From: a virus
Direction: 5' to 3' (one strand)
Length of the DNA stretch: 21,602 bases
IMG/VR virus record: IMGVR_UViG_3300027797_000164
Coordinates: 1 to 21,602 of that record
Below are positions 3,014 to 19,160 of this stretch, piece after piece (the first letter of the stretch is position 1; each line of letters begins with the position of its first letter). A program made the position numbers and the translations under genes. A model generated the notes under the pieces. It searched no databases and was not told the DNA's origin. It saw only the letters and a program-made list of their open reading frames with translations.

Positions 3014-3086
3014 TGGGACAGGAGGGAATCGAACCCCCATTGCTTGTTCTTCAGACAAGTGCCTTGACCAACTTGGCAACTGACCC
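3014..3086 (-). tRNA. tRNA-Phe (GAA)
   Basis: Acceptor GGGTCAG/CTGTCCC with one T-T mismatch, anticodon stem CTTGT/ACAAG with loop CTGAAGA, T arm GGGGG-TTCGATT-CCCTC. Confidence 0.92.
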
Positions 3087-3095
3087 AATTTATTG

Positions 3096-3170
3096 TTGTC
3101 CCGGCAGGAATCGAACCTGCGATATCCACATTCAAAGTGTGGTGGCTCTGCCAACGTCGCCTACAGGACA
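3096..3170 (-). tRNA. tRNA-Gln (TTG)
   Basis: Acceptor TGTCCTG/CGGGACA, D stem GGC/GCC, anticodon stem CCACA/TGTGG with loop CTTTGAA, T arm GCAGG-TTCGATT-CCTGC. Confidence 0.93.
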
Positions 3171-3731: not shown

Positions 3732-4295
3732 TTAATTTTTTCTACAATTTTCACAAAAATCGGTGTTAGTGTCATCATTATTACGATTTACCGACATAAC
3801 ACAATTCGGATTATCACAATGACGTAACCCTTGATTATGTCCTATCTCGTGAATTATCACACGTTTTAACTCTCTTGAATGGTTTTTACCTAGAATTACT
3901 ATATTACCAAACATTTCACCCTGACCCCCCACAAATTCATCCATATACTCAGAATAACATTTGTCATTAGTTACTATGATTTTATTAATATCATTATCAA
4001 AATCACTTAAACATTTATCGGAGTTAATTGAACCGTCAATATAATATTCAGGTCCTAAAACTATTGGGTCAATTATTTTAGTTGGTACACCATACGTTTG
4101 TTCGACAATTTGTTTTGTTTGAAGTAACGTTCTATAATTATAATGTCCCATCCCTTGAATTGTGATTGTGTCCCCATCGGTCATTTCTTTCACATCAAAT
4201 AATGATGATAACCCATTTGATGAGGTTTCTTCACACGAGAATAATCCTAAACTTAATGTCACCCCTAATAATACTTTTCCAAATAATTGTTTCAT
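3732..4295 (-). CDS. archaemetzincin-like lipoprotein metalloprotease
   Basis: A 187-residue predicted secreted zinc protease. Residues 1-21 form a lipoprotein signal peptide with lipobox LFSC (Cys21). The C-terminal part carries the archaemetzincin (M54) signature: HEIGH at 149-153, the third ligand region NQGLRH, then Cys160, Cys165, the Met-turn Met167 and a closing CxxC (Cys181, Cys184). The spacing between Met167 and the last CxxC (13 residues) is shorter than the usual 17, but all elements are present. The family is known from archaea, vertebrates and some bacteria; the phage-like setting is unusual. Lipidation predicts membrane anchoring and exposure in the periplasm or on the cell surface. 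A box TACATTTG at 4316-4323 lies 20 nt upstream. A cell-surface role during infection is inference. Confidence 0.85.
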   Translation of the reverse strand: MKQLFGKVLLGVTLSLGLFSCEETSSNGLSSLFDVKEMTDGDTITIQGMGHYNYRTLLQTKQIVEQTYGVPTKIIDPIVLGPEYYIDGSINSDKCLSDFDNDINKIIVTNDKCYSEYMDEFVGGQGEMFGNIVILGKNHSRELKRVIIHEIGHNQGLRHCDNPNCVMSVNRNNDDTNTDFCENCRKN

Positions 4296-5409: not shown

Positions 5410-7050
5410 TTAAGATAACGCTTTTTGTTTCATTGTATTAAAAACGCCGTCCATATTTCCACCAATTTTTGATAATGTAGGACATATCGCCGAAGCTAAC
5501 CCTCTTTCAATTGATTGTGCGAAATCAGTACTATCTAAACCTTGTACTATCGCATTTCTCAACACATCATAAAAACCACCTGTCAATCCTGCTTTATCTT
5601 TAACTTTGTCTAAAGATTCTTCAGCGATTGATTTAGCGATTAATGGTGTTAAATAATCACAAGTCAATATTTTACCTGAAGCGTAATCACCAATTGGAAT
5701 ATTACCGATTGCTTTAACTATTGTTCCGGCAATCCAACTATCAGTATCAATACCTAATTTATTCAAAATTGTCTCAACGATTTTTTCTTTGAAATACCCT
5801 AAAATACCTTCAGTACCTATCCCGAATAACCCTGATAATGAATCCATCAATCCTTCAGATACTAATTTTGGTGTTAAACCTAAATTAACTAAATCAAAAG
5901 ATTCGTGGATTAAATCAGATACTGAATCAATTTTAACTTTTTTTGATTCGGTAATCACATTAAAACGTGACTTTATTATTTTATTTTCTGAAACTAACGT
6001 TTTTTTTTTACTTTCAGACAACATACTTAGTTTTGTCTTAATGATTGATTTTAATAAATCATCTTTTGATTCTTTAAGTGCTTGTTCAAATTTACTTCTC
6101 AATCCAAAAGGTCCGTTATTTCGTTTTAAGAAATCAATCTCATCTTGAATCCCCATAATCCCTTTTAAATAGTTAGTTCCTTGTGTTGCACACATATATG
6201 AATTTTCTTTAGCATTTTCCACATCTGCAGGTTCAACCCCTCTAGTTTGAACTTTACCTGTTGCTAATTTATACAATAATTTAATAGAAATTTGACATTC
6301 TTTTCTACCCATTTTTGTCCCCTCAATACTAGCTAACAAATTTTTAACAGTTTCAGTTGCTTTACCTTTTTCTACATTAACACTTGATTTCCAAACTTGT
6401 AAACCTTTAACGGGTTTACCATTTTTTTGTAACGTTGCGGTAAATTCATCAACTAAACTAGCCCCACCATTTTTGTTTAACATATCTAAAGCGTCCTTAC
6501 CTGAATTATATTCGGCAGTACCATACTTTGGTTCTGTTAAAGTATAACCTAATTTTTTGAAGAACGCTTCAATATTCGGCATTTGATTAATGAATTCATT
6601 CGCAATTGAGGTTAATTGGTAAATAAAGTGTACATTAGGTTTAGTAAATAATTCAGGTTTAAGTGAATATAAATCAATTTGTTTATAAGTTCCTGTTCCT
6701 AATCCTTTTTTAACTTCATCACTTAATTTTGCAAATCCTTTATTTTGACCTAATAATCCTTCAATAAATTTAGTTTGGTCAGGACCTAACGGTGCTTCAA
6801 TTTTACCTTTTGCTGCCTCACAAGCCGAATATGACCCTGAGTTATTAAGTTTACCGTCAGCTGATAACGCTTCAAAAGTAAAATCGTTATACAAGTAAAC
6901 AACACCTTTACCCGGTACATTTTGAATTAATGCCGGTTTATTGTTGGATTTATTAACTCCCAATTGATACCCTTTCCAACCACAGTCAGATAAAATAACT
7001 GATAATGTTGGGTCTTGAGTTGATGCTTGTTCTTTTAATATTTTTCTCAT
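5410..7050 (-). CDS. probable virion protein with internal cleavage-like sites, 546 residues
   Basis: A large protein without a recognised domain. The frame is open to an ATG at 7113, but the start at 7050 (MRKILKEQAS) is preferred: it avoids overlap with the upstream gene and gives the short N-terminal Glu motif shared with other genes here. The N-terminal half has Gly, Asn and aromatic-rich segments and scattered Cys. Between about residues 340 and 400 lie five closely spaced hydrophobic-x-Glu sites (Glu at about 346, 355, 368, 383 and 399, contexts LSES, VSEN, ITES, IHES, VSEG), separating a lysine-rich linker from a Gly-rich C-terminal region with amphipathic helices. It is the last gene of the minus-strand operon 9811-5410. 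A head-packaged or tail-associated protein processed by a phage protease is inference. Confidence 0.7.
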   Translation of the reverse strand: MRKILKEQASTQDPTLSVILSDCGWKGYQLGVNKSNNKPALIQNVPGKGVVYLYNDFTFEALSADGKLNNSGSYSACEAAKGKIEAPLGPDQTKFIEGLLGQNKGFAKLSDEVKKGLGTGTYKQIDLYSLKPELFTKPNVHFIYQLTSIANEFINQMPNIEAFFKKLGYTLTEPKYGTAEYNSGKDALDMLNKNGGASLVDEFTATLQKNGKPVKGLQVWKSSVNVEKGKATETVKNLLASIEGTKMGRKECQISIKLLYKLATGKVQTRGVEPADVENAKENSYMCATQGTNYLKGIMGIQDEIDFLKRNNGPFGLRSKFEQALKESKDDLLKSIIKTKLSMLSESKKKTLVSENKIIKSRFNVITESKKVKIDSVSDLIHESFDLVNLGLTPKLVSEGLMDSLSGLFGIGTEGILGYFKEKIVETILNKLGIDTDSWIAGTIVKAIGNIPIGDYASGKILTCDYLTPLIAKSIAEESLDKVKDKAGLTGGFYDVLRNAIVQGLDSTDFAQSIERGLASAICPTLSKIGGNMDGVFNTMKQKALS

Positions 7051-7078
7051 TTTTATATCTGTTTTAATCAAATTAAGT

Positions 7079-8314
7079 TTATTTAAATAAATTTGAAGCG
7101 TTTTCTGCGTCAATATTAGTTAATTCAAAATTGGTTGCTGGATTTATTGTTGTTGTTGTAGTTGTTGAAGATGTTGATGACCCACAATTCGCTTTTATTT
7201 TATCATACACTTCTTTAGTGATTTCAGTACCATAACCTTTATCGGTTAATGCCTTTTCAGTTTTTGGACCAAACTTACCATCGGCACTTAAACCTAAACA
7301 ACCTTGAACTTCAGAAACTAATGTACTCTGACAACCTTTTTTGTATGGGTAATCAGTACAGTTAGAATATGTGGTTTTTCCTCCACCGTTTCCACCTCCA
7401 CCGTTTCCACCGCCGTTTCCACCACCATCGTCAGTTTGGTTTGGGTCTTCAACAAGACCGTTTTGATTTAACCAATCTTTCATTGCAAAATAAGTAACAC
7501 CTGCAACTGCGGCCCAAGCTAACATTTTTCTTTTTGAAATTACAAATTTACCTAAACTTTTATTATATTTTAAAAATCCTTTTTGGAACCATTGTTTTTT
7601 CTTCAAACTTGAAAGTTTACCTTTACCACTATTGTAGTATTCTTTAAACTTATCTTTAAATCTTTGAATGTAAGATTCTTTAGCCAACGCAGTAGTTTTA
7701 GATGATTGTTCAGCAGCTTTAGAACCACCTTCGAACGCTTTACCTGTTTCACCGACTTTACCTGTTTTTGCGATGTCTTCCGCACTTTTAAGTTTACCAC
7801 CTATACTTTCAGTTTGTTTAACAATTGATGTTATGGCTTCATCACTATATCCGGCAGTTTTTAACGCTTTCTCGTATTGTGCTTGACCTTGACTAAGTTC
7901 GGTTGCGTATTTAGATAAGAATTTTTGATTTCTAACTAAGTTACTTGCCGCGGCATCAACCAAAGTTTTGTTAGTGGTCTTAGAATGTAATATTGCCAAT
8001 TCTAATTCACCTTTCAGTGAACTTGTCAACTTATTTAATTTAATTGCACTTATTAATTCTTCGGCAGTTCTAACACCTGTTTTTGTTCCACCTTTAAATA
8101 ATTCAACTTCTTTTAAGGCATCAGCAACTTTGGAATCTTTCATCATTGTTTGAAGTACCCCTTCAAGTTCCTTTGCAACTAAAGACCCTGTACTTACCAA
8201 ATCTTTTATTACTCCACCACCTTCATTTAATATTTCGTCAATATTTTCTGTTAATGTTTTTTTATTGTCGTAATTCATTAACAATACTTGACGTTTTAGT
8301 TCATCGTTGTTCAT
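7079..8314 (-). CDS. virion-associated protein with peptidoglycan-binding domain
   Basis: A 411-residue modular protein. Residues 1-32 carry a leader with ILNEGG (Glu31) resembling the leaders of its neighbours. Residues 40-210 are helical and Lys/Ala-rich, then a basic segment precedes a hydrophobic helix at 264-279. A Gly/Asn-rich linker at 297-312 leads to a PG_binding_1-like domain at about 328-362 (VQGCLGLSADGKFGPKTEKAL), with Cys319, Cys328, Cys339 and Cys376 nearby. A Ser/Thr-rich tail follows. PG_binding_1 domains bind cell-wall peptidoglycan, usually attached to lytic enzymes; no catalytic domain is seen here. It lies 10 bp after the 8325 gene in the same operon. A role in DNA or protein delivery through the wall is inference. 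Confidence 0.78.
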   Translation of the reverse strand: MNNDELKRQVLLMNYDNKKTLTENIDEILNEGGGVIKDLVSTGSLVAKELEGVLQTMMKDSKVADALKEVELFKGGTKTGVRTAEELISAIKLNKLTSSLKGELELAILHSKTTNKTLVDAAASNLVRNQKFLSKYATELSQGQAQYEKALKTAGYSDEAITSIVKQTESIGGKLKSAEDIAKTGKVGETGKAFEGGSKAAEQSSKTTALAKESYIQRFKDKFKEYYNSGKGKLSSLKKKQWFQKGFLKYNKSLGKFVISKRKMLAWAAVAGVTYFAMKDWLNQNGLVEDPNQTDDGGGNGGGNGGGGNGGGKTTYSNCTDYPYKKGCQSTLVSEVQGCLGLSADGKFGPKTEKALTDKGYGTEITKEVYDKIKANCGSSTSSTTTTTTINPATNFELTNIDAENASNLFK

Positions 8315-8324
8315 CTTAATAATT

Positions 8325-9512
8325 TTATAATTTATTTGTATCGTAATCTGAGACTACTTTGGAAGCCGCCAATGCGGTTCCAATATCGGTTTCAGTTTTA
8401 CCTTGTTTATATTCCCCATAAGTCCCGACACCCGCAAGTAACGCTCCTGTACCAAGACCCGATTTAACACCTCCTCTAATATTATATTTGGCGGTGTTAG
8501 CACCTGTTTTACCTAATGCGTTTGTTATTGTTTTTGTTAAAGAATCAATAAAACCACCAAGTTTACCTAAGATACCATTAATGAATTTAGCACCTTTTGG
8601 GAACGCTTTAGATAAAAATGATGATACTTTTTGTAACATTCCTGGGGCTTTCTCAGCCGCACCTACCATACTTGTTAACGCCTGTTTACCAACACCTGTT
8701 TTGGCGAATTCGGCAATATCTTTAGCTCCCGTGGCAGCCGTTTTAACTGATTTAGCTGCCATACCTGTGGTTACTAAACCTAAGATATCAATACCTAAAA
8801 ATAATAGTCTTTGCCAAGTTGGTAATTGTTCTTCATAATTACCACTAACCATTTCATATATGTCTAACGCAACAATGATTCCCCATACTGACATTTGTAC
8901 CACTTTACCCGCACCTGCAGTGGCAACACCTGTTGCGACTAAAATTGCGTCAAGTAATAAACCAACAGGGTGATACATTGCACTTCTTATTTTTCTAAAA
9001 AGATATAAGACACCTTGACCTAATAATTTAAAGACTTCTTTCCATTCACCCTTACTTATTTTTTCAATTAATGACTTAGCACCTTTATATGTGTCTTTGG
9101 CGAAGTTTACGAACCCATCAACGGTTGATTTACCTGTCTTAACAACCCAATCTTTAAAACTACTTAATATCCCCTCATTAACTAATATTTTAACTGCGGA
9201 TTTCAATTCGTTTAAATTTTGTTTACCCTCAAGTAATAGTTTGTTATTTAAAACATTTTCAGCGTTTTCTTTTAATTGTTTAGATAAATTTGAAGTTGAG
9301 AATGTGTGGTGTAAAAATATTTTAAGAGTGTTATAGTCTTCCCAAATATTACCAAGTTTTACTTTATTTTTAACATCGTATAAGTCATCCAAAAACACAA
9401 CGTAATTTTCGTCAGGGGATAACCAATCAGTAATTACGAAATCGTCATTAGTACCCTCATACATATTTAATATATGTGACTTTTCTGACTCGTTAATAAT
9501 TAATTTACTCAT
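8325..9512 (-). CDS. probable virion protein with hydrophobic helices, 395 residues
   Basis: No known domain. The N-terminus MSKLIINESEKSHILNMYEG has the shared hydrophobic-x-Glu motif (Glu8). Two more such sites, LLLEG (Glu95) and LVNEG (Glu113), bracket a helical segment, so the mature part may start near 114. After that come amphipathic helices, long hydrophobic stretches near 183-222 and 236-252, and an Ala/Gly-rich C-terminal half with another hydrophobic stretch around 355-367. This layout suits a protein that can insert into or cross membranes, as phage ejection proteins do, but that is inference. A TATTTATA box is 14 nt upstream of the ATG. It is the second gene of the operon. Confidence 0.72.
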   Translation of the reverse strand: MSKLIINESEKSHILNMYEGTNDDFVITDWLSPDENYVVFLDDLYDVKNKVKLGNIWEDYNTLKIFLHHTFSTSNLSKQLKENAENVLNNKLLLEGKQNLNELKSAVKILVNEGILSSFKDWVVKTGKSTVDGFVNFAKDTYKGAKSLIEKISKGEWKEVFKLLGQGVLYLFRKIRSAMYHPVGLLLDAILVATGVATAGAGKVVQMSVWGIIVALDIYEMVSGNYEEQLPTWQRLLFLGIDILGLVTTGMAAKSVKTAATGAKDIAEFAKTGVGKQALTSMVGAAEKAPGMLQKVSSFLSKAFPKGAKFINGILGKLGGFIDSLTKTITNALGKTGANTAKYNIRGGVKSGLGTGALLAGVGTYGEYKQGKTETDIGTALAASKVVSDYDTNKL

Positions 9513-9526
9513 AATTAATTTTATTA

Positions 9527-9534
9527 TATAAATA
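9527..9534 (-). promoter_or_regulatory. late-type promoter box before the 395-residue gene
   Basis: TATTTATA on the minus strand, 14 nt before ATG at 9512, followed by TAATAAAA. Spacing and context match those at 11525. Confidence 0.55.
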
Positions 9535-9559
9535 CAGTCTAAACTAAAAAAGTAACCGT

Positions 9560-9811
9560 TTACAATAAAGTATTCGCTTTACCTCTATTTATTTTTACAA
9601 TGTCAGCCCATTTAGTTAAACCGATTTGATTTGCAGGTCCTCTAGTTACACCTGACTCCCATTTAGTGACAGTTGGATAAGCGGGTTTACCACCTCCACC
9701 ACCACCTGTACTCGGAGCTGCTGCCGCGGCATCTTGTTCCCCAAGTTCTCCCGAATCATCAAAATTTGTGAAATGGTTTAAAATTCCTATTATGTTGTCA
9801 ATATTACTCAT
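9560..9811 (-). CDS. small structural-like protein with Ala/Gly hinge, 83 residues
   Basis: A short three-part protein: an acidic helix (residues 1-27), a low-complexity hinge with five Ala and six Gly (about 28-41), and a C-terminal segment rich in Trp, Lys and Gly (PTVTKWESGVTRGPANQIG, then TKWADIVKINRGKAN). The tail resembles short conserved tails of hypothetical proteins in marine T4-like phages; that link is from memory and was not searched. It is the first gene of the operon 9811-5410, with a TATTTATA box four bases before its ATG. A role as a small virion or assembly protein is plausible. Confidence 0.7.
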   Translation of the reverse strand: MSNIDNIIGILNHFTNFDDSGELGEQDAAAAAPSTGGGGGGKPAYPTVTKWESGVTRGPANQIGLTKWADIVKINRGKANTLL

Positions 9812-9815
9812 ATTG

Positions 9816-9823
9816 TATAAATA
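9816..9823 (-). promoter_or_regulatory. late-type promoter box of the virion operon
   Basis: TATTTATA on the minus strand only four bases before ATG at 9811. If it works as a -10 element the message would be leaderless or nearly so. Confidence 0.45.
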
Positions 9824-9825
9824 TT

Positions 9826-9855
9826 TTTGTAATCTTAAATATTTTAGTATATTTG
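9826..9855 (+). promoter_or_regulatory. host-type promoter of the 9864 lipoprotein
   Basis: TTTG (9826-9829), an 18-nt spacer and TATATTTG (9848-9855), eight bases before the ATG at 9864. It is divergent from the virion operon. Confidence 0.65.
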
Positions 9856-9863
9856 TTGAAAAT

Positions 9864-10388
9864 ATGAATTGTATGAAATATATTGTAATAATCTTAATCT
9901 CACTGTTAACTTTAACGTCTTGTTATAAACAGTATTCTCAACCAAAAACATTATCATTAAGCGGTGAATACATCGTCGATAAAATCACTTACTCTAAAGT
10001 GGAGAATTCGACAACACCTGACGAAACTGTGTATTACGGTGGGGATATCTATGTAAACCCAAATGGGACATTTCCAATGGATAGTATTAGTGTCGGTTTT
10101 ACAAGATGGCACTTAGACTATAGTGTTATATCATTTAATCCACATACGTTGAATACAGGTCAAGTAATATGGGAAAAACAGTATTTCTATAATGTGGTAA
10201 ATCATTACACAAATTATGACTTGGGATATATTGATTTCACAATGGATAATGGGGGTAGAAGAATCTTCAAAATAATTGATGATGGTGTTGAAAACTTAGT
10301 ATTAAGAACTACAGGTCAATGGAGTTCGTATGGGGCTTCAGGTCCTGAAGAATCGGTGACACTTTATCTTACAAGAGTAGGTCCATAA
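9864..10388 (+). CDS. lipoprotein, about 174 residues
   Basis: The frame is open to an ATG at 9768, but that extension overlaps the divergent gene; the starts at 9864 (MNCMKYIVI) or 9873 (MKYIVI) give a proper lipoprotein signal peptide with lipobox LTSC and lie just past a consensus host-type promoter. The mature part begins YKQYSQ and is beta-rich with many Tyr and aromatic residues (LSLSGEYIVDKI, YGGDIYVNPNGTF, TRWHLDYSVI), ending LYLTRVGP. It resembles small lipocalin-like lipoproteins of Bacteroidota in style, but no family is assigned. An envelope protein expressed early from a host promoter could alter the infected cell surface; this is inference. Confidence 0.75.
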   Translation: MNCMKYIVIILISLLTLTSCYKQYSQPKTLSLSGEYIVDKITYSKVENSTTPDETVYYGGDIYVNPNGTFPMDSISVGFTRWHLDYSVISFNPHTLNTGQVIWEKQYFYNVVNHYTNYDLGYIDFTMDNGGRRIFKIIDDGVENLVLRTTGQWSSYGASGPEESVTLYLTRVGP

Positions 10389-10391
10389 AAA

Positions 10392-10414
10392 AACCCCTCT
10401 TTATCGGAGGGGTT
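10392..10414. terminator. bidirectional terminator between convergent genes
   Basis: Stem AACCCCTC/GAGGGGTT with a 7-nt loop. On the minus strand a run of seven T follows, strong termination for the 10738-10421 gene; on the plus strand the tail is TTAATAATTT, weaker, after the lipoprotein stop. Confidence 0.85.
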
Positions 10415-10420
10415 AATAAT

Positions 10421-10738
10421 TTAAAAAAGTTCTGACTTGGGTAATTTTTTTGGATTGACTAAGTAATATTCATTTAAGAATGACATTACCTCATCATCGT
10501 CAATATCATATTCTTCTGAATAATCAAAGTCATCGGAAAACTCGTCGTCAAAATCTTCACCAAACGCATCACTAATTTTATTTTTAGAGTCGAAATCAAA
10601 TCCAAACCCGATAGTTTCATCTAAGGAGATTTGGTCGGTTCTAATCTCATCTTCTTTGTCAAATAACAATCTAAATGTCACATCTAATGTTTCTGATGTT
10701 TCATTAATATAAAAGGACACTAATTCTTTAACTTCCAT
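10421..10738 (-). CDS. very acidic protein, 105 residues
   Basis: An unrecognised protein. Residues 1-45 look like a beta-rich fold (VKELVSFYINETSETLDVTF). Residues 46-85 are extremely rich in Asp, Glu, Phe and Tyr, such as FGEDFDDEFSDDFDYSEEYD. The last 20 residues are more neutral, ending in LPKSELF. A late-like box (TATTTTTT) lies about 20 nt upstream. It is the last of three acidic genes read in the same direction (12272, 11510, 10738). High negative charge could mean a DNA mimic, a basic-protein chaperone or a scaffold; the sequence does not decide. Confidence 0.65.
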   Translation of the reverse strand: MEVKELVSFYINETSETLDVTFRLLFDKEDEIRTDQISLDETIGFGFDFDSKNKISDAFGEDFDDEFSDDFDYSEEYDIDDDEVMSFLNEYYLVNPKKLPKSELF

Positions 10739-10790
10739 AATTTAATCTTTACTTAAAAAATATCTAAAAATTACTTAAAAGTTAAAATAT

Positions 10791-11510
10791 TTAATTATAT
10801 TTTTTAAACCTTTTAAACATATCCAACGATTTGGTTACTTGTTCCATAATTGGTTGAGAATCTTCTTCATCAAAATCACCCCCAAGTTCAATTGTAAATT
10901 CATCATCGTTTGACTCATCTTCGTCGCGAGTTAAATCAATGCTAAATTCTTCATCGTCAAAGTCACCGTCTTCGAATGGTATGATATCACCTAAATCAAA
11001 ATTTAAGATGTCGTTTTCAAAATCAACAGTACCGTGTTTAACGTCGTCTTCTCTATCGGCAATCATATCTAATGGTGGTCCAACCTCTTGTTCATCTAAT
11101 TCAAAATTAAAGTCAGTATCGTATTCTACTTCGTGTTTCGGCCAATCTTCAGATGGGTCTTCTTCATAATGAAAAGGTCTTTTAGCCGGTTTACTTAAAT
11201 GTTTTTTAATGTCAGATTTCGCAGATTTTTCGGCTTTATAATCAGATTCTTCATCAGAAAATAACCCGGTACTTTTGTTATCAAATCTCATTTCATTGAT
11301 ACTTTCATTGATACCGTAATTTTTATATTCACTAACTTCACCTTTGTTATTAACTGTGATACCTTCTTTATCTTTAGCCATATCAACAACATATAATGGT
11401 GTCATATTACTACCACCATATTGTGTCACATAACCATCGTAGATTGTTTTATGTTTGTCTAAGATGTTTTCTCTTTCCTCGTTTGTTACATTGAAAAAAT
11501 ATTGATTCAT
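10791..11510 (-). CDS. acidic protein with Glu-motif N-terminus, 239 residues
   Basis: An unrecognised protein in two parts. Residues 1-70 are mixed, beginning MNQYFFNVTNEERENILDKH, a variant of the N-terminal motif seen in the virion proteins, then a segment with TPLYVVDMAKDKEGITVNN that looks folded; INESINE follows near 67-73. Residues about 115-220 are a long acidic stretch broken by Phe and Leu. The last 20 residues are basic and amphipathic (MEQVTKSLDMFKRFKKYN). A TATTTATA box is 14 nt before the ATG, the same spacing as for the 9512 gene, so the two are probably expressed together late. A virion or assembly role is inferred from this. Confidence 0.68.
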   Translation of the reverse strand: MNQYFFNVTNEERENILDKHKTIYDGYVTQYGGSNMTPLYVVDMAKDKEGITVNNKGEVSEYKNYGINESINEMRFDNKSTGLFSDEESDYKAEKSAKSDIKKHLSKPAKRPFHYEEDPSEDWPKHEVEYDTDFNFELDEQEVGPPLDMIADREDDVKHGTVDFENDILNFDLGDIIPFEDGDFDDEEFSIDLTRDEDESNDDEFTIELGGDFDEEDSQPIMEQVTKSLDMFKRFKKYN

Positions 11511-11524
11511 AATTTTTGTTTTCT

Positions 11525-11532
11525 TATAAATA
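11525..11532 (-). promoter_or_regulatory. late-type promoter box
   Basis: TATTTATA on the minus strand, 14 nt before ATG at 11510. Confidence 0.55.
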
Positions 11533-11543
11533 TCATTTATTGA

Positions 11544-12272
11544 TTAATAATCATCTTCTTCATCATCCTCTTCATCTTCATACCCGTCTTCATAGTAATC
11601 TTCATCCTCGTCATCGTCATTCTCTGTCTTATCAAATTCTTTTGACATTGGGAACATCATATAAATTTGCATAAGAGTTGAAGTATCCCTTCTCATACGT
11701 CTATCAACTGATTGGGGGGTTATTTCTTTATCATCATCCTCAAGCATCGTCATAGCTCCTGAAATCATCACATTACGAACTTCATCGGCGTGTTCTATAG
11801 CGTATTTTAAAGCGTTTTTATTACTAATGTTTTTATATTTGATAAAATGTTCTAATCTTTCTTTACCACAAGATAAGAAATACCCTGACTCAAGCATATT
11901 AACAATACCTGTCGCTCGAATGGCGGTTAAAAATAACTTTAATATTTTCCAATGATAGTTTTTTAATATTTGACGATTTTTTAAAACAAAGTTCGACAAA
12001 GATTGTTGACTCTCAGTTAACTTTTTTTTAGGTTTAACTGACTCTGTACGTCTTTTTCTTCGGTTATTAAAGTCTTCCTCATATAACCAAATATCTTCAC
12101 CTGAGATTAAGTTAAGACGAGAACCATTGTCCCAATCAACGTAATATAAGTCATCCCCAAAAACATTACTTGAACTTAAAACAGTCCCCGCAGTTCCCGG
12201 TGGGACCGAAGAATAAGGGTCGGACATTTTGAGTACAACGACTCTATCTCCTTTTTGTAATTCTGGATTCAT
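11544..12272 (-). CDS. DUF4314-like protein with acidic tail, 242 residues
   Basis: Residues 4-65 resemble the DUF4314 type, a small beta-barrel-like domain: KGDRVVVLKMSDPYSSVPPG, then TAGTVLSS, YYVDWDNGSRLNLI and EDIW. A basic linker (NNRRKRR, KPKKK) and a KLTESQQSL segment with the hydrophobic-x-Glu pattern follow. Residues about 95-205 form a helical domain with NYHWKILKLFLTAIRATGI and several Met. The last 30 residues are almost all Asp, Glu and Tyr. DUF4314 domains occur in phage and plasmid proteins without a fixed function. A late-like box (TATTTATC) is 15 nt upstream, and the start region is divergent from the 12319 gene. Confidence 0.72.
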   Translation of the reverse strand: MNPELQKGDRVVVLKMSDPYSSVPPGTAGTVLSSSNVFGDDLYYVDWDNGSRLNLISGEDIWLYEEDFNNRRKRRTESVKPKKKLTESQQSLSNFVLKNRQILKNYHWKILKLFLTAIRATGIVNMLESGYFLSCGKERLEHFIKYKNISNKNALKYAIEHADEVRNVMISGAMTMLEDDDKEITPQSVDRRMRRDTSTLMQIYMMFPMSKEFDKTENDDDEDEDYYEDGYEDEEDDEEDDY

Positions 12273-12287
12273 ATTTTGTTTTTATTA

Positions 12288-12295
12288 GATAAATA
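12288..12295 (-). promoter_or_regulatory. late-type promoter box (variant TATTTATC)
   Basis: On the minus strand, 15 nt before ATG at 12272, followed by TAATAAAAAC as at other late boxes. Confidence 0.5.
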
Positions 12296-12307
12296 TAATT
12301 AATAAGG

Positions 12308-12315
12308 TATTTATA
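12308..12315 (+). promoter_or_regulatory. late-type promoter box
   Basis: TATTTATA three bases before ATG at 12319, divergent from the box at 12288-12295. Such a short distance suggests a leaderless message. Confidence 0.4.
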
Positions 12316-12318
12316 TGT

Positions 12319-12957
12319 ATGAAAAAAACTATTTTAATAACTGAAGCACAACAACGTGTAATTTTGTGCGAGTTGGCTAATAAGGAAATTGATAGTACAA
12401 TTGGTGAAAACGATAAATTAGTTAAACGAATTGCGTCCCAAGCCTCAGAACAAATTAAATTTGATTTAAGTATTTTAGGGACATTTAGTTTGGCGATTGG
12501 TGGTTTAATGGGTCCGTTGGAGAAATTTATCCGTGGAGAATACCCTCAAATGTCAACAATGGAAATTAGTTTATTGTTAGCGGGTGTTGGGTTCCAATAT
12601 ATGTTGGATAATAAAGTTCCGTTATCAAAATTAATCCAAAAGATTAAAAAAGATGGTTTGTATGATATCTACCAAAAAGTTCTTAAAAAATCTGACGTAT
12701 TAAAAGATTCTTTCTTATCATTTGTTGATAGCTTAGGGGTTAGTGTTAAAAAGACGGCAAATATTATGGGATATACATTCTTAATCCCATTAATACCTCT
12801 TATCTATAATATGGTTACTAATGGACAATTCAATGAGAATGATACCGTTGAAATAATTAAAAGATTGTCAGGGTTTGTTGGTCTTAATTATGGTGGTATT
12901 GGTCTAAAAGAATTGTTATCATTGATGATTAATAGATTTAGAAGTGAAAATAATTAA
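12319..12957 (+). CDS. membrane-associated protein with Glu-motif leader, 212 residues
   Basis: The N-terminus MKKTILITEAQQRVILCEL carries the shared hydrophobic-x-Glu motif (Glu9) and is predicted to be a removable leader. After a charged helix, residues about 50-65 (LSILGTFSLAIGGLMG) and 82-95 (EISLLLAGVGFQYM) are hydrophobic, and a third stretch lies at about 150-168 (NIMGYTFLIPLIPLIYNMV). Basic helices connect them. No family is recognised. The pattern of hydrophobic helices plus cleavable leader matches the 8325 gene and suits a protein packed in the virion that later inserts into a membrane; this is inference. Confidence 0.7.
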   Translation: MKKTILITEAQQRVILCELANKEIDSTIGENDKLVKRIASQASEQIKFDLSILGTFSLAIGGLMGPLEKFIRGEYPQMSTMEISLLLAGVGFQYMLDNKVPLSKLIQKIKKDGLYDIYQKVLKKSDVLKDSFLSFVDSLGVSVKKTANIMGYTFLIPLIPLIYNMVTNGQFNENDTVEIIKRLSGFVGLNYGGIGLKELLSLMINRFRSENN

Positions 12958-13029
12958 ATTCATTTGACTTTTATTTAAATTGATGTTATAATTTGTTTAT
13001 ACAATAATAAAATTAATAAATAAAAATTT

Positions 13030-13536
13030 ATGTTTAACAAAAATTATCCTAACTTATTTGAAAGTTATTTAACTAATGAAACTGATTTGTTCGAATCTTT
13101 CTTCAACCAAATTAACAACACTTTAAAACCAACAGTTGGGGAAACTAAAGCCGAAAACGGTGTTAATGAAGATGGTAGTAAATGGTACAAAACTACATTC
13201 ACATCTAAAGATGGTTCTTATACTCAATCGGTATATACCTCAACACCTAATTTGACAACTACTTGGTCACCAAAAAGAAAACCATCAAGTCCAGCATCAA
13301 AAACACCGTCATTCACAGATTCTGCGGTTTATGAACTAACAACATTGTTGAATAAAGCGGTTGAAACTCAAAATTATGAGGAAGCGGTTAGATTGAGAGA
13401 CGAAATCAAAACATATGAAAAATATGCTGACGAGATTATGACTCTTAAATCAAAATTGGAAACTGCGGTTTCAACTCAAAATTATGAAGACGCAATCAAA
13501 TGGAGAGACAAAATCAATAAATTTACTAATAAATAA
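13030..13536 (+). CDS. protein with two UVR-like repeats, 168 residues
   Basis: The N-terminus has two LFES-type sites (NLFESYL and DLFESFF, residues 9-26) recalling the leaders of the other virion-type genes. Residues 45-85 are Ser/Thr/Lys-rich. The C-terminal half has two copies, 36 residues apart, of a helix pair with the UVR signature: residues about 105-129 (VETQNYEEAVRLRDEIK) and 141-165 (VSTQNYEDAIKWRDKI). UVR motifs mediate UvrB-UvrC contact in nucleotide excision repair and occur in McsA and Clp proteins as interaction modules. No nuclease or helicase domain is attached, so it may be an adaptor that binds a host UVR partner. It is followed by a strong terminator. Confidence 0.78.
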   Translation: MFNKNYPNLFESYLTNETDLFESFFNQINNTLKPTVGETKAENGVNEDGSKWYKTTFTSKDGSYTQSVYTSTPNLTTTWSPKRKPSSPASKTPSFTDSAVYELTTLLNKAVETQNYEEAVRLRDEIKTYEKYADEIMTLKSKLETAVSTQNYEDAIKWRDKINKFTNK

Positions 13537-13555
13537 TATTAGTAAATCTTAAATT

Positions 13556-13587
13556 AAAAAAGGTCATATTACTATGACCTTTTTTTT
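13556..13587. terminator. strong bidirectional terminator
   Basis: A perfect 13-bp stem (13556-13568 with 13573-13585), loop TTAC, A run on one side and T run on the other. It serves the plus gene ending at 13536 and the minus gene ending at 13586. Confidence 0.92.
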
Positions 13588-14602
13588 ATCTCTGATAATT
13601 TAATATTTGGGTAATTACTTGTTGTTCTTCATCAGGGGTTAAACCGTGAATGTCTCTATGAGTATCGAACCAATCATTAACAACAACTTCCATTGGTACT
13701 TTTCTTAACTTTGAAAGTCGTTTAAATCCTTGATATTGTGCAGGAATTTCGTGTTCCTGAGTGTAATATTCTATGGGGGTGTCAGGTTCTTGTTCAACTC
13801 TATCAAATTCCCCGTGATATTCTTGTTTAGAATGTTCCATTTCGTGAGCCAAGACCTCATTTAATTCTCCGGCCAATTCGTATAGTTGTTTTGTTATCGT
13901 ATTTGGGTTGTATTCGATACCAATTTCAATAACATCGTCATCGGGTGAATAGTAACCATCAACTCTATACCCCCCAATAACATCATTAGTTTTCAATGTC
14001 AATTCTACAGAATACGTTTGTTTTGTATTTAAAAACTCATATTCGTGTTCACCGGTAATATCTTCAGGTAAATAAACACTACCTTCTTTTTTCTGTTTTA
14101 CAGTATTAAGGATGTCTTTAACGATAGTTCTAATTGCTAGTCGATTCATACGAATTTCATTTAATTGTTTTGTGTCCAACTCAAGTTCTGACGAATATAC
14201 TAAAATTTGTTCAATTTTAAAATGTTTAATTTGTAATGGTTCTAAAAATTCTAAAATTTCTTGTTCAATTTGTCCTAACATATACAATTGGTTCGTTAAA
14301 TCCATAATATCCATAATACCATTATTCTCATTAAAGTCAAAATTGCTCTCTTTAAAAAGAGTAAGGACTTTTTTAAATGTTTCATTTAAATTAAAGATGG
14401 TTACGGAAATTGTGTAAAATTCAGTCCAATCACCAATTCTTACCATTTTTTTATTTTTGGGTAAAAATTGGAACATATAATCAAATGAATAATAATCTTT
14501 TTTAAATTTAAAATGTTTTTTAACTAATCTTTTATTGATGTTATCAATAACCTTTTTTGGTAAAACTTTATTTACAGTTTTTATGTCTTTTTTGTCGTCC
14601 AT
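13586..14602 (-). CDS. HExxH zinc metallopeptidase-like protein, 338 residues
   Basis: Residues 1-170 are helical and Lys-rich with no recognised fold. Residues 198-232 form a beta-rich piece (YRVDGYYSPDDDVIEIGIEYNP) leading into the active-site helix LAHEMEHSKQE with HEMEH at 253-257. Downstream, YYTQEHEIPAQYQGFK (residues 279-294) supplies the Glu expected as third zinc ligand, as in other phage-encoded peptidases with an 'E-IPA' segment after HExxH. The C-terminal tail is helical. The enzyme may process phage or host proteins. A TATTTATA box is 18 nt upstream, so it is probably expressed late with the virion genes. Assignment to a named peptidase family needs a profile search. Confidence 0.78.
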   Translation of the reverse strand: MDDKKDIKTVNKVLPKKVIDNINKRLVKKHFKFKKDYYSFDYMFQFLPKNKKMVRIGDWTEFYTISVTIFNLNETFKKVLTLFKESNFDFNENNGIMDIMDLTNQLYMLGQIEQEILEFLEPLQIKHFKIEQILVYSSELELDTKQLNEIRMNRLAIRTIVKDILNTVKQKKEGSVYLPEDITGEHEYEFLNTKQTYSVELTLKTNDVIGGYRVDGYYSPDDDVIEIGIEYNPNTITKQLYELAGELNEVLAHEMEHSKQEYHGEFDRVEQEPDTPIEYYTQEHEIPAQYQGFKRLSKLRKVPMEVVVNDWFDTHRDIHGLTPDEEQQVITQILNYQR

Positions 14603-14620
14603 ATCTTAATTCAATATACT

Positions 14621-14641
14621 TATAAATACCAAATATGGTAT
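14621..14641 (-). promoter_or_regulatory. late-type box with adjoining inverted repeat
   Basis: TATTTATA (14621-14628) 18 nt before ATG at 14602. Just upstream on the minus strand ATACCA/TGGTAT (14624-14641) forms a 6-bp inverted repeat that overlaps the box and could be an operator shared with the divergent thioesterase gene at 14667. Confidence 0.45.
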
Positions 14642-14666
14642 TAAACTCAATCTCATTTATTTTTTT

Positions 14667-15077
14667 ATGGAATTAATATCAAGTCACCCGATTAAAAAGT
14701 CGGATTTAGGCTTTCACGGGAACCTATTCGGTGGGTCATTATTGAAGTGGATTGATTCGGCAGCTGCGGGATATGCGATGCAACTATGTGATACACCAAG
14801 AATGGTTACTGTCTCAATCGACAAATGTAATTTTGAAAAACCTGCTAAGGAAAATCAATTGTTAAAAATTTATGGTTACCCATCAAGAATTGGGAATACC
14901 TCAATAACAATTTATATGGAGGCTAGGTCACATAATGTTTACACCGGTAAACAAGAATTAGTGTTGAAAACAAATATCACGTTTGTTAGGATTGATGACA
15001 CAGGTTCCCCAATTCCAATAAGTGACAGAGTTAAAAATAAGATTAATAAGATACTCGAAGAGGTTGTATTAGTCTAA
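14667..15077 (+). CDS. acyl-CoA thioesterase, hotdog fold
   Basis: A 136-residue single-domain hotdog protein of the YciA/acyl-CoA thioesterase type, which hydrolyses acyl-CoA to CoA and free acid. The family hallmark HGNLFGGSLLKWIDSAAAGYA (residues 17-37) is complete, with Asn19 and Asp30 in the expected active-site positions, followed by VTVSID, FEKPAKENQLLKIYGYPSRIGNTSI and a terminal FVRIDDTGSPIP. Its length is normal for the family. There is no signal peptide, so it acts in the cytoplasm. It is alone on the plus strand between minus genes and overlaps the end of the 15069 gene by 9 bp. In a phage-like setting it would be an auxiliary metabolic gene that could change lipid or CoA pools; that role is inference. 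Confidence 0.88.
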   Translation: MELISSHPIKKSDLGFHGNLFGGSLLKWIDSAAAGYAMQLCDTPRMVTVSIDKCNFEKPAKENQLLKIYGYPSRIGNTSITIYMEARSHNVYTGKQELVLKTNITFVRIDDTGSPIPISDRVKNKINKILEEVVLV

Positions 15078-16247
15078 GAAATGAACCTTAATTTTAAGTT
15101 CTGACGAACCTTTAATGACTCTATGATAAACACCTTCAGGGATTACAATTTGTGTCCCTGGTGTTAATCTTTTTGGTAATTCATTATCAAATTGAATCTC
15201 CCATCCATCACCCTCAATAACTTCAACCAATCTATCTTCACGGTCTCGATGCCATTTTAATTCCTCATCATCAACACTTTCACTAAAAATTCTAATTTTA
15301 CAATCCTCGGTTATGATTTCATCGTAAGGTTCTTCTTTTTTCTTTGTAAATAAATGAAGTAATACAATTAATATCGAACCACCCGGTAACATAAATAAAC
15401 CGGCCATCCCTAACCTCTTTGCGGTTCTTTTAAAAACTAATTTTAACTCGTTAGATATTTGTTCACGTTCTTCTTTTGATAGATTTTTTTTCTTAGTAAC
15501 TAAATGTTTAAATGCTAGTTTAGCGTCGTCACTAGAATTTTTTAATTCTTCCTTAAATGTGGTTTTTATTCTATCGGTGTTTTTCTTAATTAAACTAATC
15601 GTGTCGTCAACCTTATTTTCATTTATTTCTTCATCTGAATTATCCGTATCCAATTCTTCAACATCCATATGTAATGAAAACCCTTCAAACTCATCATATT
15701 TTTTGACTATACGGGTTAAAGCAATATTAAGTGTTTTCTCCGCAGCTTTTATAAGTAAATCGTTATTTGGTTCAATTGTGTTTAACCTAACAATAACTCT
15801 AGCGGTCATCTTATCCATACCTACCCAATTAGTATTTTCAGGCCCAACAAATTCTACTTCAAAATAAGAATCCTTAGAATCATATCCTGACAAATAATTC
15901 TCCAATTCGGTTTTAAAATCTTCCGATAATGAAACTAATGAATCAAATCTTTCAGGAACATCTGTATTATAATATATTCGGTAATTAATTGAATTAACAA
16001 GTCTACTCATTCGTGCTAATTCACGAATTTTAGAATTAAAAACTTCTTCGTTTTTGTGAGCTTCCCAAAACCAATTAGAGTTTATATAAATGTCGAATCT
16101 TGGTTTTTCATTATATACGTCATACAATTCGTGAATTAATTCAACTCTTGGTAAGTCATTAATCACAACATTTAATTCTTTACTAGTTAATTTAATCGCG
16201 TATTTTATATATTTTTCAAATATATTTTTAACTTGTTCTTTTTCCAT
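15069..16247 (-). CDS. multidomain protein with LETM1-like segment and C-terminal cupin
   Basis: A 392-residue protein. Residues 1-205 form an unrecognised alpha/beta region. Residues about 215-305 are a charged helical stretch followed by GMAGLFMLPGGSILIVLLHLF (residues 280-300), a hydrophobic helix with the LPGGS turn typical of LETM1-like proteins. Residues 310-330 are a Ser/Asp linker and 331-392 a cupin: WHRDRED, IEGDGWEIQFD and TPGTQIVIPEGVYHRV, with His333 and His375 as possible metal ligands. Only part of the first cupin motif is conserved. It begins one base after the stop of the 16249 gene, so the two form an operon. The combination of a membrane helix and a cupin is odd; no function is assigned. 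Confidence 0.7.
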   Translation of the reverse strand: MEKEQVKNIFEKYIKYAIKLTSKELNVVINDLPRVELIHELYDVYNEKPRFDIYINSNWFWEAHKNEEVFNSKIRELARMSRLVNSINYRIYYNTDVPERFDSLVSLSEDFKTELENYLSGYDSKDSYFEVEFVGPENTNWVGMDKMTARVIVRLNTIEPNNDLLIKAAEKTLNIALTRIVKKYDEFEGFSLHMDVEELDTDNSDEEINENKVDDTISLIKKNTDRIKTTFKEELKNSSDDAKLAFKHLVTKKKNLSKEEREQISNELKLVFKRTAKRLGMAGLFMLPGGSILIVLLHLFTKKKEEPYDEIITEDCKIRIFSESVDDEELKWHRDREDRLVEVIEGDGWEIQFDNELPKRLTPGTQIVIPEGVYHRVIKGSSELKIKVHFLD

Positions 16248-16248
16248 A

Positions 16249-17640
16249 TTACCAATTTCTTGAAGATTTTAATCCTAATTTTTTTGCGTATCTACCAACA
16301 TTACAACTCCAATATCCTGCCATTGTTCTATCAGTCTTTTGGTCGCAATTATGTCTTGCTCTAAATGATTTTGCGGCTTTCTTATTATTATTTTTAACTC
16401 TTAAATTGGGGTCACCAAAAGTAACTTTCTTAACAGTTCCTTTACCTGTCTTAACATATACCGCGAATTTCTTTGGTCCACCTGGTGTTCTAAAAGGACT
16501 ACCTAATTTCACATTCTTACCTCGGTGTAATGCTTCATTAATCGAACCCTCCAATTCTTCGTGTTTGAATACTTCCGAATCAAAATCTCGACTTTCAATC
16601 GGCGCATATTCGAATGTGAAAGTGTCTCGACCAAATGGGTCACGGTCATCAATATCAATTCTTTCTAAATCTTTTTTGAAGTAGTAAGGTTTATTTTTAT
16701 TAATAAAAACAAAATAATCAAAATCTAAATCTAAAAATCTTTTGAAATGTGGAACACCGGTAACTCTAAAATGTCTAATAGAAGTTTTAAACAGAATATT
16801 ATATATATTACCCATTAAGAATAATTTAGTAATACCATCAAATGTTATACTAAAGTATCTCATAGACCCCATTTTTTTAATGATTTTTACTACGTGGTCT
16901 TTATCTAAATTTAAATTCTCTCTAAGTTCAGTTTCCTCCTCACTTTCTTCCTCATACATTGGTGCGTCCAAATAAACTTCTTCACCACCCTCAAGGATTA
17001 CTTTTTTACCTAAATCAGACTCAACTAACCAACTATCTTCTTCATTTAATGTGATTAAATTTTTATTGTATAATTTTCTAACTTCATTAATGATGTTGAA
17101 GAAATTCTCAGAATAAATTCTAAATACGTTTTCAGATAATGAAATTTCATTTTCTAAATGATATTTTAACTCCGTAGAAACATTAACTTTTTCAGTTAAT
17201 TTCATAGGTGTCTTTTTACCCCATTTTTCACCTTTACCTTTGGTCCCACAAGCCGACGGTGTTGGTCTACAAGCCGGATATTTTGACCTATCCTCACCTT
17301 CACTTCTACCACAAGACTTACAAGTTTTTTTACCACTGGAATCTGTACGACAAGTGTTACAGTCAACCCAACCTTGTGATTTGCCTTTACCCCCTTGTCT
17401 TGAAAACCATCCGTGTAATCCTGATTCCTTTTCTTTACTGTAGTCAGTCTTTTTTGCTTCATCAATTGGTTCAACTTCTTCTTTCCAAATTTTACCTTGA
17501 CGACATTTAACTACCGCACCTGACGCATACGCTGATGGCCAAGTATCATATTTTTGTTTGGCTAATCTAACACATCTATCGTCCTTTTTTTTCTTGTTAG
17601 ATTCATTAAGGACCTCATATATTAATTTATCAATATTCAT
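16249..17640 (-). CDS. Cys-rich multidomain phage protein, 463 residues
   Basis: The N-terminus MNIDKLIYEVLNES carries the hydrophobic-x-Glu motif (LIYE, VLNES). Three modules follow that resemble segments seen in hypothetical proteins of marine T4-like phages. Residues 21-52 have WPSAYASGAVVKCR. Residues 74-131 have GLHGWFSRQGGKGKSQGW and cysteines at 94, 97, 107, 110, 124 and 131 with YPACRPTPSAC, probably zinc-binding (DUF5872-like, from memory). Residues 385-457 have KKFAVYV, VTFGDPN, SFRARHNCD and AGYWSCNVGRYAK. The middle (about 145-370) is acidic and has several more hydrophobic-x-Glu sites. A late-type box lies 17 nt upstream and the cupin gene follows directly. It is probably a virion or assembly protein. 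Confidence 0.75.
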   Translation of the reverse strand: MNIDKLIYEVLNESNKKKKDDRCVRLAKQKYDTWPSAYASGAVVKCRQGKIWKEEVEPIDEAKKTDYSKEKESGLHGWFSRQGGKGKSQGWVDCNTCRTDSSGKKTCKSCGRSEGEDRSKYPACRPTPSACGTKGKGEKWGKKTPMKLTEKVNVSTELKYHLENEISLSENVFRIYSENFFNIINEVRKLYNKNLITLNEEDSWLVESDLGKKVILEGGEEVYLDAPMYEEESEEETELRENLNLDKDHVVKIIKKMGSMRYFSITFDGITKLFLMGNIYNILFKTSIRHFRVTGVPHFKRFLDLDFDYFVFINKNKPYYFKKDLERIDIDDRDPFGRDTFTFEYAPIESRDFDSEVFKHEELEGSINEALHRGKNVKLGSPFRTPGGPKKFAVYVKTGKGTVKKVTFGDPNLRVKNNNKKAAKSFRARHNCDQKTDRTMAGYWSCNVGRYAKKLGLKSSRNW

Positions 17641-17646
17641 ACTTGA

Positions 17647-17677
17647 TTGTTTTATTAAATAAATATCCCTATCTTTG
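17647..17677 (+). promoter_or_regulatory. host-type promoter giving a leaderless kinase message
   Basis: TTG (17647-17649), a 20-nt spacer and TATCTTTG (17670-17677), then four bases and ATG at 17682. The start site of such promoters normally falls a few bases after the box, i.e. at the A of the ATG. Confidence 0.6.
17658..17665 (-). promoter_or_regulatory. late-type promoter box (variant TATTTATT)
   Basis: On the minus strand, 17 nt before ATG at 17640, followed by TAATAAAAC. It overlaps the divergent host-type promoter of the kinase gene, so the two may compete. Confidence 0.5.
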
Positions 17678-17681
17678 GGTT

Positions 17682-18086
17682 ATGAATAATAAATATCTAT
17701 ATATCCTAAGAGGTTTACCAGGAGCGGGTAAAAGTACATTAGCAAGAACTATCGGAGCCGTTTATTTTGAGGCTGATATGTTTTTTTTGGAAGGTAAAGA
17801 ATATAAATTTAACCCAACCAAATTAAAGGACGCGCACGCTTGGTGTCAAAACCAAGTTAGAATATCTATGAAGAATTCCGATTCAAAATTGGGGGATAGT
17901 AAAATTGCCGTTGCAAATACTTTTACACAAGAATGGGAAATGCAACCATATATTGATATGGCGAAAGAATATGGGTTTACCGTATTTACGTTGGTGGTTG
18001 AAAATCGTCACGGTGGAACAAATGTTCACAACGTTCCCGAAGAAGTAATTGATAAAATGAAAGAAAGATTTGAAATTAAATTATGA
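17682..18086 (+). CDS. P-loop kinase (AAA_33-like)
   Basis: A 134-residue P-loop protein. An in-frame ATG exists at 17643 but the promoter box lies inside that extension, so the start is MNNKYLYILRG at 17682. The Walker A motif is GLPGAGKST at residues 11-19. ADMFF (about residues 31-35) is the usual acidic site after strand 2, and NTFTQEWEM at about 86-94 is the typical substrate-side segment of AAA_33/polynucleotide-kinase-like enzymes. The C-terminal segment VVENRHGGTNVHNVPEEVID fits the lid region of phage Pnk-like kinases. The product probably phosphorylates a small molecule or nucleic-acid end; the substrate is not visible. Its stop overlaps the next gene as ATGA, so translation is coupled. 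Confidence 0.85.
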   Translation: MNNKYLYILRGLPGAGKSTLARTIGAVYFEADMFFLEGKEYKFNPTKLKDAHAWCQNQVRISMKNSDSKLGDSKIAVANTFTQEWEMQPYIDMAKEYGFTVFTLVVENRHGGTNVHNVPEEVIDKMKERFEIKL

Positions 18087-18313
18087 AACTAATTAATATA
18101 TTTTTTAAAACTGTCCAAATATATATTGCACTTAAAATATGTGCGGCATTGTACTTGGTACATTACTTACCTAAACAACATTCAATAGATAGTGTAATAT
18201 GGTGGGTTTCTGTATTAATACTTGATATGTGGTTAAATTTAGTCGTATTCAGTGATGATACGGTTAATATCACTATTAAAGAACCTGAGAAGACTGATGA
18301 CGAAAAAGAATAA
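18083..18313 (+). CDS. small membrane protein, 76 residues
   Basis: Its ATG overlaps the kinase stop (ATGA). Two hydrophobic helices are visible, about residues 8-29 (FKTVQIYIALKICAALYLVHYL) and 39-57 (VIWWVSVLILDMWLNLVVF), followed by an acidic cytoplasmic-type tail (EPEKTDDEKE). It is not recognised. Co-translation with a kinase suggests a shared transcript but not necessarily shared function. The convergent 18314 gene ends one base away. Confidence 0.65.
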   Translation: MKLINIFFKTVQIYIALKICAALYLVHYLPKQHSIDSVIWWVSVLILDMWLNLVVFSDDTVNITIKEPEKTDDEKE

Positions 18314-18532
18314 TTATTTAGAACGACTTCGAAATAAGAAATATAATCCAAAGAGTAATCCCGAAATACAATATAATACGAGATTTGCTTTCATTAAACT
18401 TCCTGTTAGAGTAATAAGATAATATTGAACCACGTCGAACCCGAAAGGATTGAAAAACATCGCTAACACAAGACATTTTACTGCCAGATTTTCCATAAAG
18501 ATTTTCTTCCAAGTCTTGATTTGTTTCCCCAT
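18314..18532 (-). CDS. small membrane protein, 72 residues
   Basis: An N-terminal basic stretch (KQIKTWKKIF) followed by hydrophobic helices at about residues 15-36 and 38-67 and a closing RSRSK, all typical of a small inner-membrane protein; holin or superinfection-type roles are possible but not shown. A longer frame in another register (start 18566) covers the same bases but reads less like a protein. No clear promoter is visible. It converges with the 18083 gene. Confidence 0.55.
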   Translation of the reverse strand: MGKQIKTWKKIFMENLAVKCLVLAMFFNPFGFDVVQYYLITLTGSLMKANLVLYCISGLLFGLYFLFRSRSK

Positions 18533-18601
18533 CGTCCATAGATTTTAATTTAAGATTTATGCACATAATCGCATTTTCTTGTCTAAATATAAATACGTTA
18601 A

Positions 18602-18609
18602 TATTTATA
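18602..18609 (+). promoter_or_regulatory. late-type promoter box
   Basis: TATTTATA 23 nt before ATG at 18633. The inverse TATAAATA also occurs just upstream (near 18588). Confidence 0.45.
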
Positions 18610-18632
18610 AAAGAATACTAAAAAATTCTATT

Positions 18633-19160
18633 ATGAAAAGATATATTATCGACGAAAACAAACTTCGTGAAACAATACGTAAAAGATTACTTGAACAATC
18701 TTCTAGTGAAGAAAAACAAGAAGAACAAAAACCAAGATGTTTAACTAACAACATAATCCCATTGGACCATATTGTTGGTAAAGTTAATGACGTTCAAACA
18801 TACGCACCCGGTGTAACTAAAAGAGGTGGTGGAATTAACTCAATGGTGGATACTTTAGGTATTTTAAATAACCTTAGATTGTTTAAAGACATATCTGATG
18901 GTGGGTCTCATTTATCATATGAAATGATGAACCATTTAAATCAATATCGTAACAAAAACTATTATGATGAAACAACAGGTAATTGTCATAAGGCGATAGA
19001 TAAAGTGGTTGAGTTGTATAAAGAACACGAACACGGTACAGAATTAGTTAAAGACATAGAACGTGTATTAAATCTTCAAACTAAAGATGATGAGTTAACA
19101 CCATCTTCAAGAGCAAAAGAATATTTGAAACAATGTTTAAACCTTATCAAAGGTAAATAA
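18633..19160 (+). CDS. protein with Glu-motif leader, 175 residues
   Basis: The frame opens at an ATG at 18579, but the start MKRYIIDENKLRE at 18633 follows the late-type box and gives the shared N-terminal motif, with LLEQSSSEE at about residues 19-27 as a second possible cleavage site. The mature part is helical and charged, with GVTKRGGGINSMVDTLGILNN near 60-80 and a NCHKAIDKVVELYKEHEHG segment near 114-132. There is no membrane helix or known domain. A strong terminator follows. By its leader it belongs with the candidate head-packaged proteins; its function after delivery is unknown. Confidence 0.7.
   Translation: MKRYIIDENKLRETIRKRLLEQSSSEEKQEEQKPRCLTNNIIPLDHIVGKVNDVQTYAPGVTKRGGGINSMVDTLGILNNLRLFKDISDGGSHLSYEMMNHLNQYRNKNYYDETTGNCHKAIDKVVELYKEHEHGTELVKDIERVLNLQTKDDELTPSSRAKEYLKQCLNLIKGK

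Follow-up and report, generated by a model that had tools for sequence, protein, structure and literature searches.

In a genome fragment from an uncultured T4-like phage, six proteins begin with a leader, as do about 10-32 proteins per contig among its relatives. The leader is probably a lineage-specific capsid-targeting propeptide, by which the carriers would be packaged, cut by a gp21-family protease and injected. The fragment, IMGVR_UViG_3300027797_000164, is referred to as the window, i.e. the whole stretch of 21,602 bases that was analysed. The leader, its boundary at a Glu residue, the non-homologous bodies behind it, the selection on the peptide, the presence of the protease and the capsid-like type of site were read directly from the sequences.

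Genomic context

Cultured phages gave no DNA match to the window. Relatives were found via the 17640 protein (up to 91% identity) on contigs of up to 187 kb, and further contigs of up to 296 kb were recovered via the capsid protein of one of these relatives. Where present in the relatives, the T4-like head cluster comprises terminase, portal, S77 protease, scaffold and a gp23-type capsid protein. The whole cluster is absent from G001, the closest long relative, and the window contig itself contains no prohead protease. By capsid protein, Microcystis phage Mel-JY01 and Flavobacterium phage immuto are the closest cultured relatives, and a capsid relative is encoded by at least 599 IMG/VR contigs. 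No relative of the 12319 protein was encoded on any bacterial genome contig, which therefore gives no host link.

Thirteen tRNA genes were counted in the window. Their cluster (1285-3170) adjoins carrier genes; the T4 genes ipI, ipII and ipIII likewise flank a tRNA cluster. Other genes encode a predicted lipoprotein with the zinc-protease motif HEIGHNQGLRH (3732-4295), a second predicted lipoprotein (9792-10388), an HExxH (HEMEHS) protein without leader (13586-14602) and a small protein matching phrog_18230 of unknown function (14667-15077). The start of the latter is nearly identical to that of the G002 copy, and its sequence looks like that of a hotdog-fold thioesterase.

Conserved glutamate sites in the window proteins

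Gene starts were called mechanically, at the first ATG. All ORFs of the window were scanned with the pattern [LIVMF][LIV]xE[SAGQN]. Of the 23 ORFs that encode 90 aa or more, six have a site within their first 32 residues; shuffling of the residues gave 1.0 ± 1.0 such ORFs, with a maximum of 5 in 300 shuffles. The scan returned exactly the six proteins for which the original prediction had claimed leader sites, and these sites are kept in orthologs: ILKE7/Q in 7050, ILNE31/G in 8314, IINE8/S in 9512, LITE9/A in 12319, VLNE13/S in 17640, and IIDE8/N together with LLE21/Q in 18633 (the slash marks the predicted cut). The features are as follows, with scores in bits from the leader matrix described below:

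16249-17640, minus strand: carrier 1 (463 aa), leader MNIDKLIYEVLNE/S, site [VI]LxE kept in orthologs
17599-17640, minus strand: leader of carrier 1, residues 1-14, site after E13
8325-9512, minus strand: carrier 2 (395 aa), leader MSKLIINE/SEKSHILNMYE/G, 26.8 bits
9171-9176, minus strand: codons E113-G114 of the processing-like site LVNE113/G in carrier 2, from the alignment
7079-8314, minus strand: carrier 3 (411 aa), leader MNNDELKRQVLLMNYDNKKTLTENIDEILNE/GG, sites conserved in most orthologs
5410-7050, minus strand: carrier 4 (546 aa), leader MRKILKE/Q, sites conserved in orthologs
5854-6015, minus strand: multi-site linker of carrier 4, residues 346-399, five sites, from pattern scan and alignment
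12319-12957, plus strand: carrier 5 (212 aa), leader MKKTILITE/AQQRVILCE/L, 20.0 bits, both sites kept in orthologs
18633-19160, plus strand: carrier 6 (175 aa), leader MKRYIIDE/NKLRETIRKRLLE/QSSS, [LI]xE kept in 10 orthologs
10791-11510, minus strand: possible carrier 11510 (239 aa, acidic), leader-like helix NVTNEERENILDKH, score 7.6, no conserved site

Orthologs keep the hydrophobic residue at P3 and the Glu at P1; P2 and the flanks or linker vary. The sites are conserved as [VI]LxE in 17640, [IVL][IL]xE in 7050, [LI]xE in 18633 and I[TN]E and [IL]xE in 12319, and the orthologs of 8314 have LTE followed mostly by [ILV]xE. The internal sites claimed earlier were also present and conserved, at E346, E355, E368, E383 and E399 of the 7050 product and at E95 and E113 of the 9512 product (LLLE95/G and LVNE113/GILSSF), the last two being invariant in seven aligned sequences. 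Only two other matches to the pattern occur in the window, E217 of the 17640 product and E107 of the 17682 ORF. Two looser variants that had been proposed as well were taken off the cargo list because the site is not kept. In the UVR-repeat protein 13030 (13030-13536, plus strand; UVR E=1.1e-17), rejected as a carrier, LFES turns into FDS or YGN in orthologs, and 11510 has a leader-like helix, but its orthologs show no conserved [LI]xE.

The body of carrier 1 contains a conserved RLAKQKYDTWPSAYASGAVVKCR segment followed by a C-terminal phrog_7595 domain (PHROG matches). Carrier 3 ends in a weak peptidoglycan-binding-like repeat (PG_binding_1 E=0.023, below cut-off), and the C-terminal part of carrier 2 is helix-rich and partly hydrophobic. 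In carrier 4 the five-site linker separates two predicted regions, with pLDDT below 50 for residues 327-416 in a low-confidence model. AlphaFold modelled both the 9512 and the 7050 family with low confidence (pLDDT 43.5 and 54.9, respectively) and placed the sites in coil or low-confidence linker; a PDB profile search with the 9512 family gave chance-level matches only. The predicted neo-N-termini GILSSF, GLMDSL and GLWSSF (after E113 in the 9512 product and E399 in the 7050 product) recur in several carriers, and neo-N-termini of the GLW/GLF type follow predicted sites 13 times against 3.9 in shuffles. These segments are possibly membrane-active helices.

Prohead protease and capsid protein of the relatives

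The original prediction had pointed to the rest of the genome for a gp21-like protease. A gp21-family (S77) enzyme was indeed found in 17 of 24 relative records (seven of the 14 first relatives and all ten further relatives) and in all six analysed relative contigs that have terminase and portal. It is 33% identical to T4 gp21, keeps the NHP and SSRG motifs with the conserved His and Ser, and matches the Peptidase_S77 profile above the cut-off (E 1e-23 to 1e-39). The capsid proteins (MCPs) of the relatives carry L-[IL]-[NST]-E/[AS] (LINE/A and variants), with Glu in 79 of 80, and LINE/A aligns with FLTE/A of T4 gp23. A capsid-only pattern, [LIM][ILV][NST]E[AS], was defined without the leaders. 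Its density was 0.0021 per position in residues 1-15 versus 0.00006 beyond residue 150 (~35-fold), and 53 proteins have it among their first 45 residues, versus 3.9 ± 2.0 in shuffles. The predicted leader site is of the same type as the MCP site of the lineage.

The loose site alone is not diagnostic, because the crAss-like phage phi14:2, which has a different head, also shows an N-terminal excess (7 vs 1.9 expected; the different-head controls were small, two half genomes). The N-termini with the loose site in phi14:2 are unlike each other, and the diagnostic features are the shared leader and its boundary.

The leader and its carriers

In the longer relatives the leader spans about 20 residues with the consensus MKxxIxLTExxxxRIxKxxIxE (alignment of one representative per body cluster) and is found on ~6-13% of the proteins. 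A leader matrix was trained on 18 N-termini of one genome, with a hit defined as at least 14 bits, and held-out leaders were found in other genomes. At this threshold it retrieved 15 of 316 proteins in G001, 16 of 142 in G003, 8 of 122 in G008, 25 of 357 in G015, 11 of 224 in G016 and 18 of 309 in G017, and none of 1651 and 2955 internal-Met decoys or of 7950 shuffles. Clear scores in the window were limited to 9512 and 12319; 7050, 8314 and 17640 have other leader types, assigned by site conservation alone, and the G002 ortholog of carrier 6 reaches 34.1 bits. A tblastn search of phage records with the leader as a short-peptide query yielded no matches, and a description of it in environmental T4-like phages was not found in the literature accessible without subscription.

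The 130 carriers form 82 body clusters with no detectable homology between clusters. Only nine Pfam families matched the 81 carrier representatives, including Phage_lysozyme, SLT transglycosylase, a TseH-like effector and DHH/SET (PF00959, PF01464 and PF25218 among the matches), versus 51 families in 81 random non-carriers of 80-420 aa, including PhoH, IMPDH, DnaG, sigma-70 and gp32. Wall hydrolases are expected among injected proteins; endolysins could explain single cases. L251 (16449-18695) encodes a leader-bearing protein of 748 aa in which DHH and SET domains occur. Non-structural genes, in which the cargo reading expected the motif to be rarer, proved free of the leader: it was present on none of 40 replication and metabolism homologs of annotated immuto genes, a result of modest power (~3.3 expected), and on none of 49 core-structural homologs of immuto genes, versus 138 of 1685 proteins overall.

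It is unlikely that the carriers are components of the prohead core or scaffold, like T4 gp22, gp67 and gp68, which would be cut up during maturation and not delivered as intact cargo. The multi-site proteins would suit such a role, the 7050 product with five sites in about 55 residues and the 9512 product with three, and the core proteins of T4 undergo cleavage at many L/I-X-E sites (PMC9026906). In most carriers, however, the sites are confined to the leader, folded wall hydrolases are found among them, and the number and diversity of the body clusters are unlike those of a scaffold.

The best-defined leaders, class A (38 proteins), mostly show 2-3.7 bits per position up to the Glu, with 0.94 bits at P2, 0.98 at P1' and then about 0.2 or less. 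Their terminal residue is Glu in 37 cases and Gln in one, never Asp. Judged by this alignment, the boundary of the leader is the terminal Glu, where conservation in class A ends exactly. The second site is missing in 10 of 100, and some class C members are paralogs with a leader that runs into the body. A paralogous family of G002 (90040-105505; L079-L080), LLGGWxNFCKVFxIESPMDFLHLFDDL, has an ITEN leader and no second site.

Class A leaders also resemble amphipathic helices that contain K/R and are capped by TE, which would suit a docking or membrane-binding helix for another intracellular partner, the Glu being a feature of the helix. We regard this as improbable in view of a terminal Glu that is never exchanged for Asp and coincides with the end of conservation, the same site type in the capsid protein and the recognised nonstructural genes without leader.

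Within-genome class A pairs are 64% identical in the leader and 6.7% identical in the next 18 residues, and their identical leader residues use a different codon in 39% of cases versus 52% if independent. Since the leader is kept while codons differ and the bodies are non-homologous, selection acts on the peptide. That the leader spread through shared ancestry or recent DNA copying (paralogy or a spreading cassette) as a peptide without function is very unlikely. Some carriers are indeed paralogous (a 16-member family), carriers are clustered in G001, G002, G015, G016 and G017 (not in G003 and G008), and the codon divergence lies somewhat under independence, but 82 non-homologous bodies and a peptide retained despite codon change argue against copying. 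The strand-helix half of a ribbon-helix-helix (RHH) DNA-binding domain, whose strand and helix A IRLTESDLxRIV presumably resembles superficially, is scarcely credible, with no RHH family match among the 81 carriers, no second helix and conservation ending at the Glu.

Comparison with other phages

In T4, gp21 cuts L/I-X-E and a capsid-targeting sequence (CTS) of 10 residues suffices for packaging (PMC9026906). T4 Alt is cut at ITE-6 (PMC5694885), which resembles the short ITE sites of this lineage. Like the leader, the T4 CTS (IPI, IPII, IPIII and Alt) is a short peptide at the N-terminus of proteins that are otherwise unrelated, and it has a phi-x-E end (...FIAE/A in IPII and IPIII, ...TITE/A in IPI), and the genomes of the relatives share the S77 protease and the T4-type MCP site. 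In contrast, the peptide sequences are unrelated (the leader matrix gives T4 IPI-III -11 to -18 bits), the T4 peptides comprise 10-19 residues versus ~22 in class A, those of this lineage being mostly longer, and a handful of T4 genes face 10-32 per contig here. In T4, exchange of the Glu for Asp prevents processing but leaves targeting intact. The leader thus appears to work like a CTS, but its sequence is not homologous to that of T4, so it is not a member by descent.

In phiKZ and SPN3US (gp175/gp245 protease), ejection-protein propeptides are similarly cut after Glu by a gp21-related protease, with multiple sites within (PMC5694885, PMC9026906), whereas the motif is S/A-x-E or A-x-E, not L/I-x-E, and the propeptides often exceed 100 residues and have no shared consensus leader. 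In P1 DarB, an N-terminal signal is on its own enough to direct a reporter to the capsid (PMC9024508), but this is reported for one protein, the P1 head is of another type, and the likeness is by description. Flavobacterium phage immuto (cultured, Immutovirus) is T4-like, with an annotated prohead protease, and several of its proteins share leaders of its own (MENFDLKKFLVENKLT, MKKSQLREIIRKEL, MKKQILSEQFRRMQ...ITES). These differ in sequence, and none of the immuto proteins with 90 aa or more reaches 14 bits with the matrix of this lineage. The related T4-like phages G010-G012 also have leaders of their own, which, together with immuto, suggests that the leader of each lineage co-evolves with its core.

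Proposed processing and significance

In the T4-type mechanism the leader binds the core, is cut after Glu, and the body is released into the head (PMC9026906; PMC5694885; PMC3012670). By this precedent we infer core binding, cleavage, packaging and injection for the carriers, which would be made as pro-proteins. During prohead assembly the leader (short strand, ITE/LTE helix cap, amphipathic helix and [IL]xE end) would bind the scaffold core and thereby bring the carrier into the head. Next, the gp21-family (S77) protease of the phage would cut after the leader Glu, as expected for the MCP at LINE/A; the leader would be released, and the mature body would stay with the DNA and be injected at the next infection. 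Additional fragments would be released by cleavage at the internal sites of products 9512 and 7050. The T4-like cargo set of the original prediction gains from the protease in the relatives, the MCP-type site and the leader-free nonstructural genes, and loses the UVR protein and 11510. A point against packaging is that a head loaded with tens of cargo types would go beyond the Alt and three IPs of T4.

In T4, a handful of proteins enter the host together with the DNA. One leader consensus could quite plausibly serve as a genome-readable address label in a large uncultured T4-like clade, listing tens of injected proteins per phage. If so, the injected list would include cell-wall hydrolases, membrane-active and nuclease-like proteins, and the injected proteome of T4-like phages would exceed its known size several-fold. 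Being readable from sequence, such a leader would yield, for abundant uncultured phages, a set of injected proteins that can be tested, as well as new tags for packaging proteins into phage heads.
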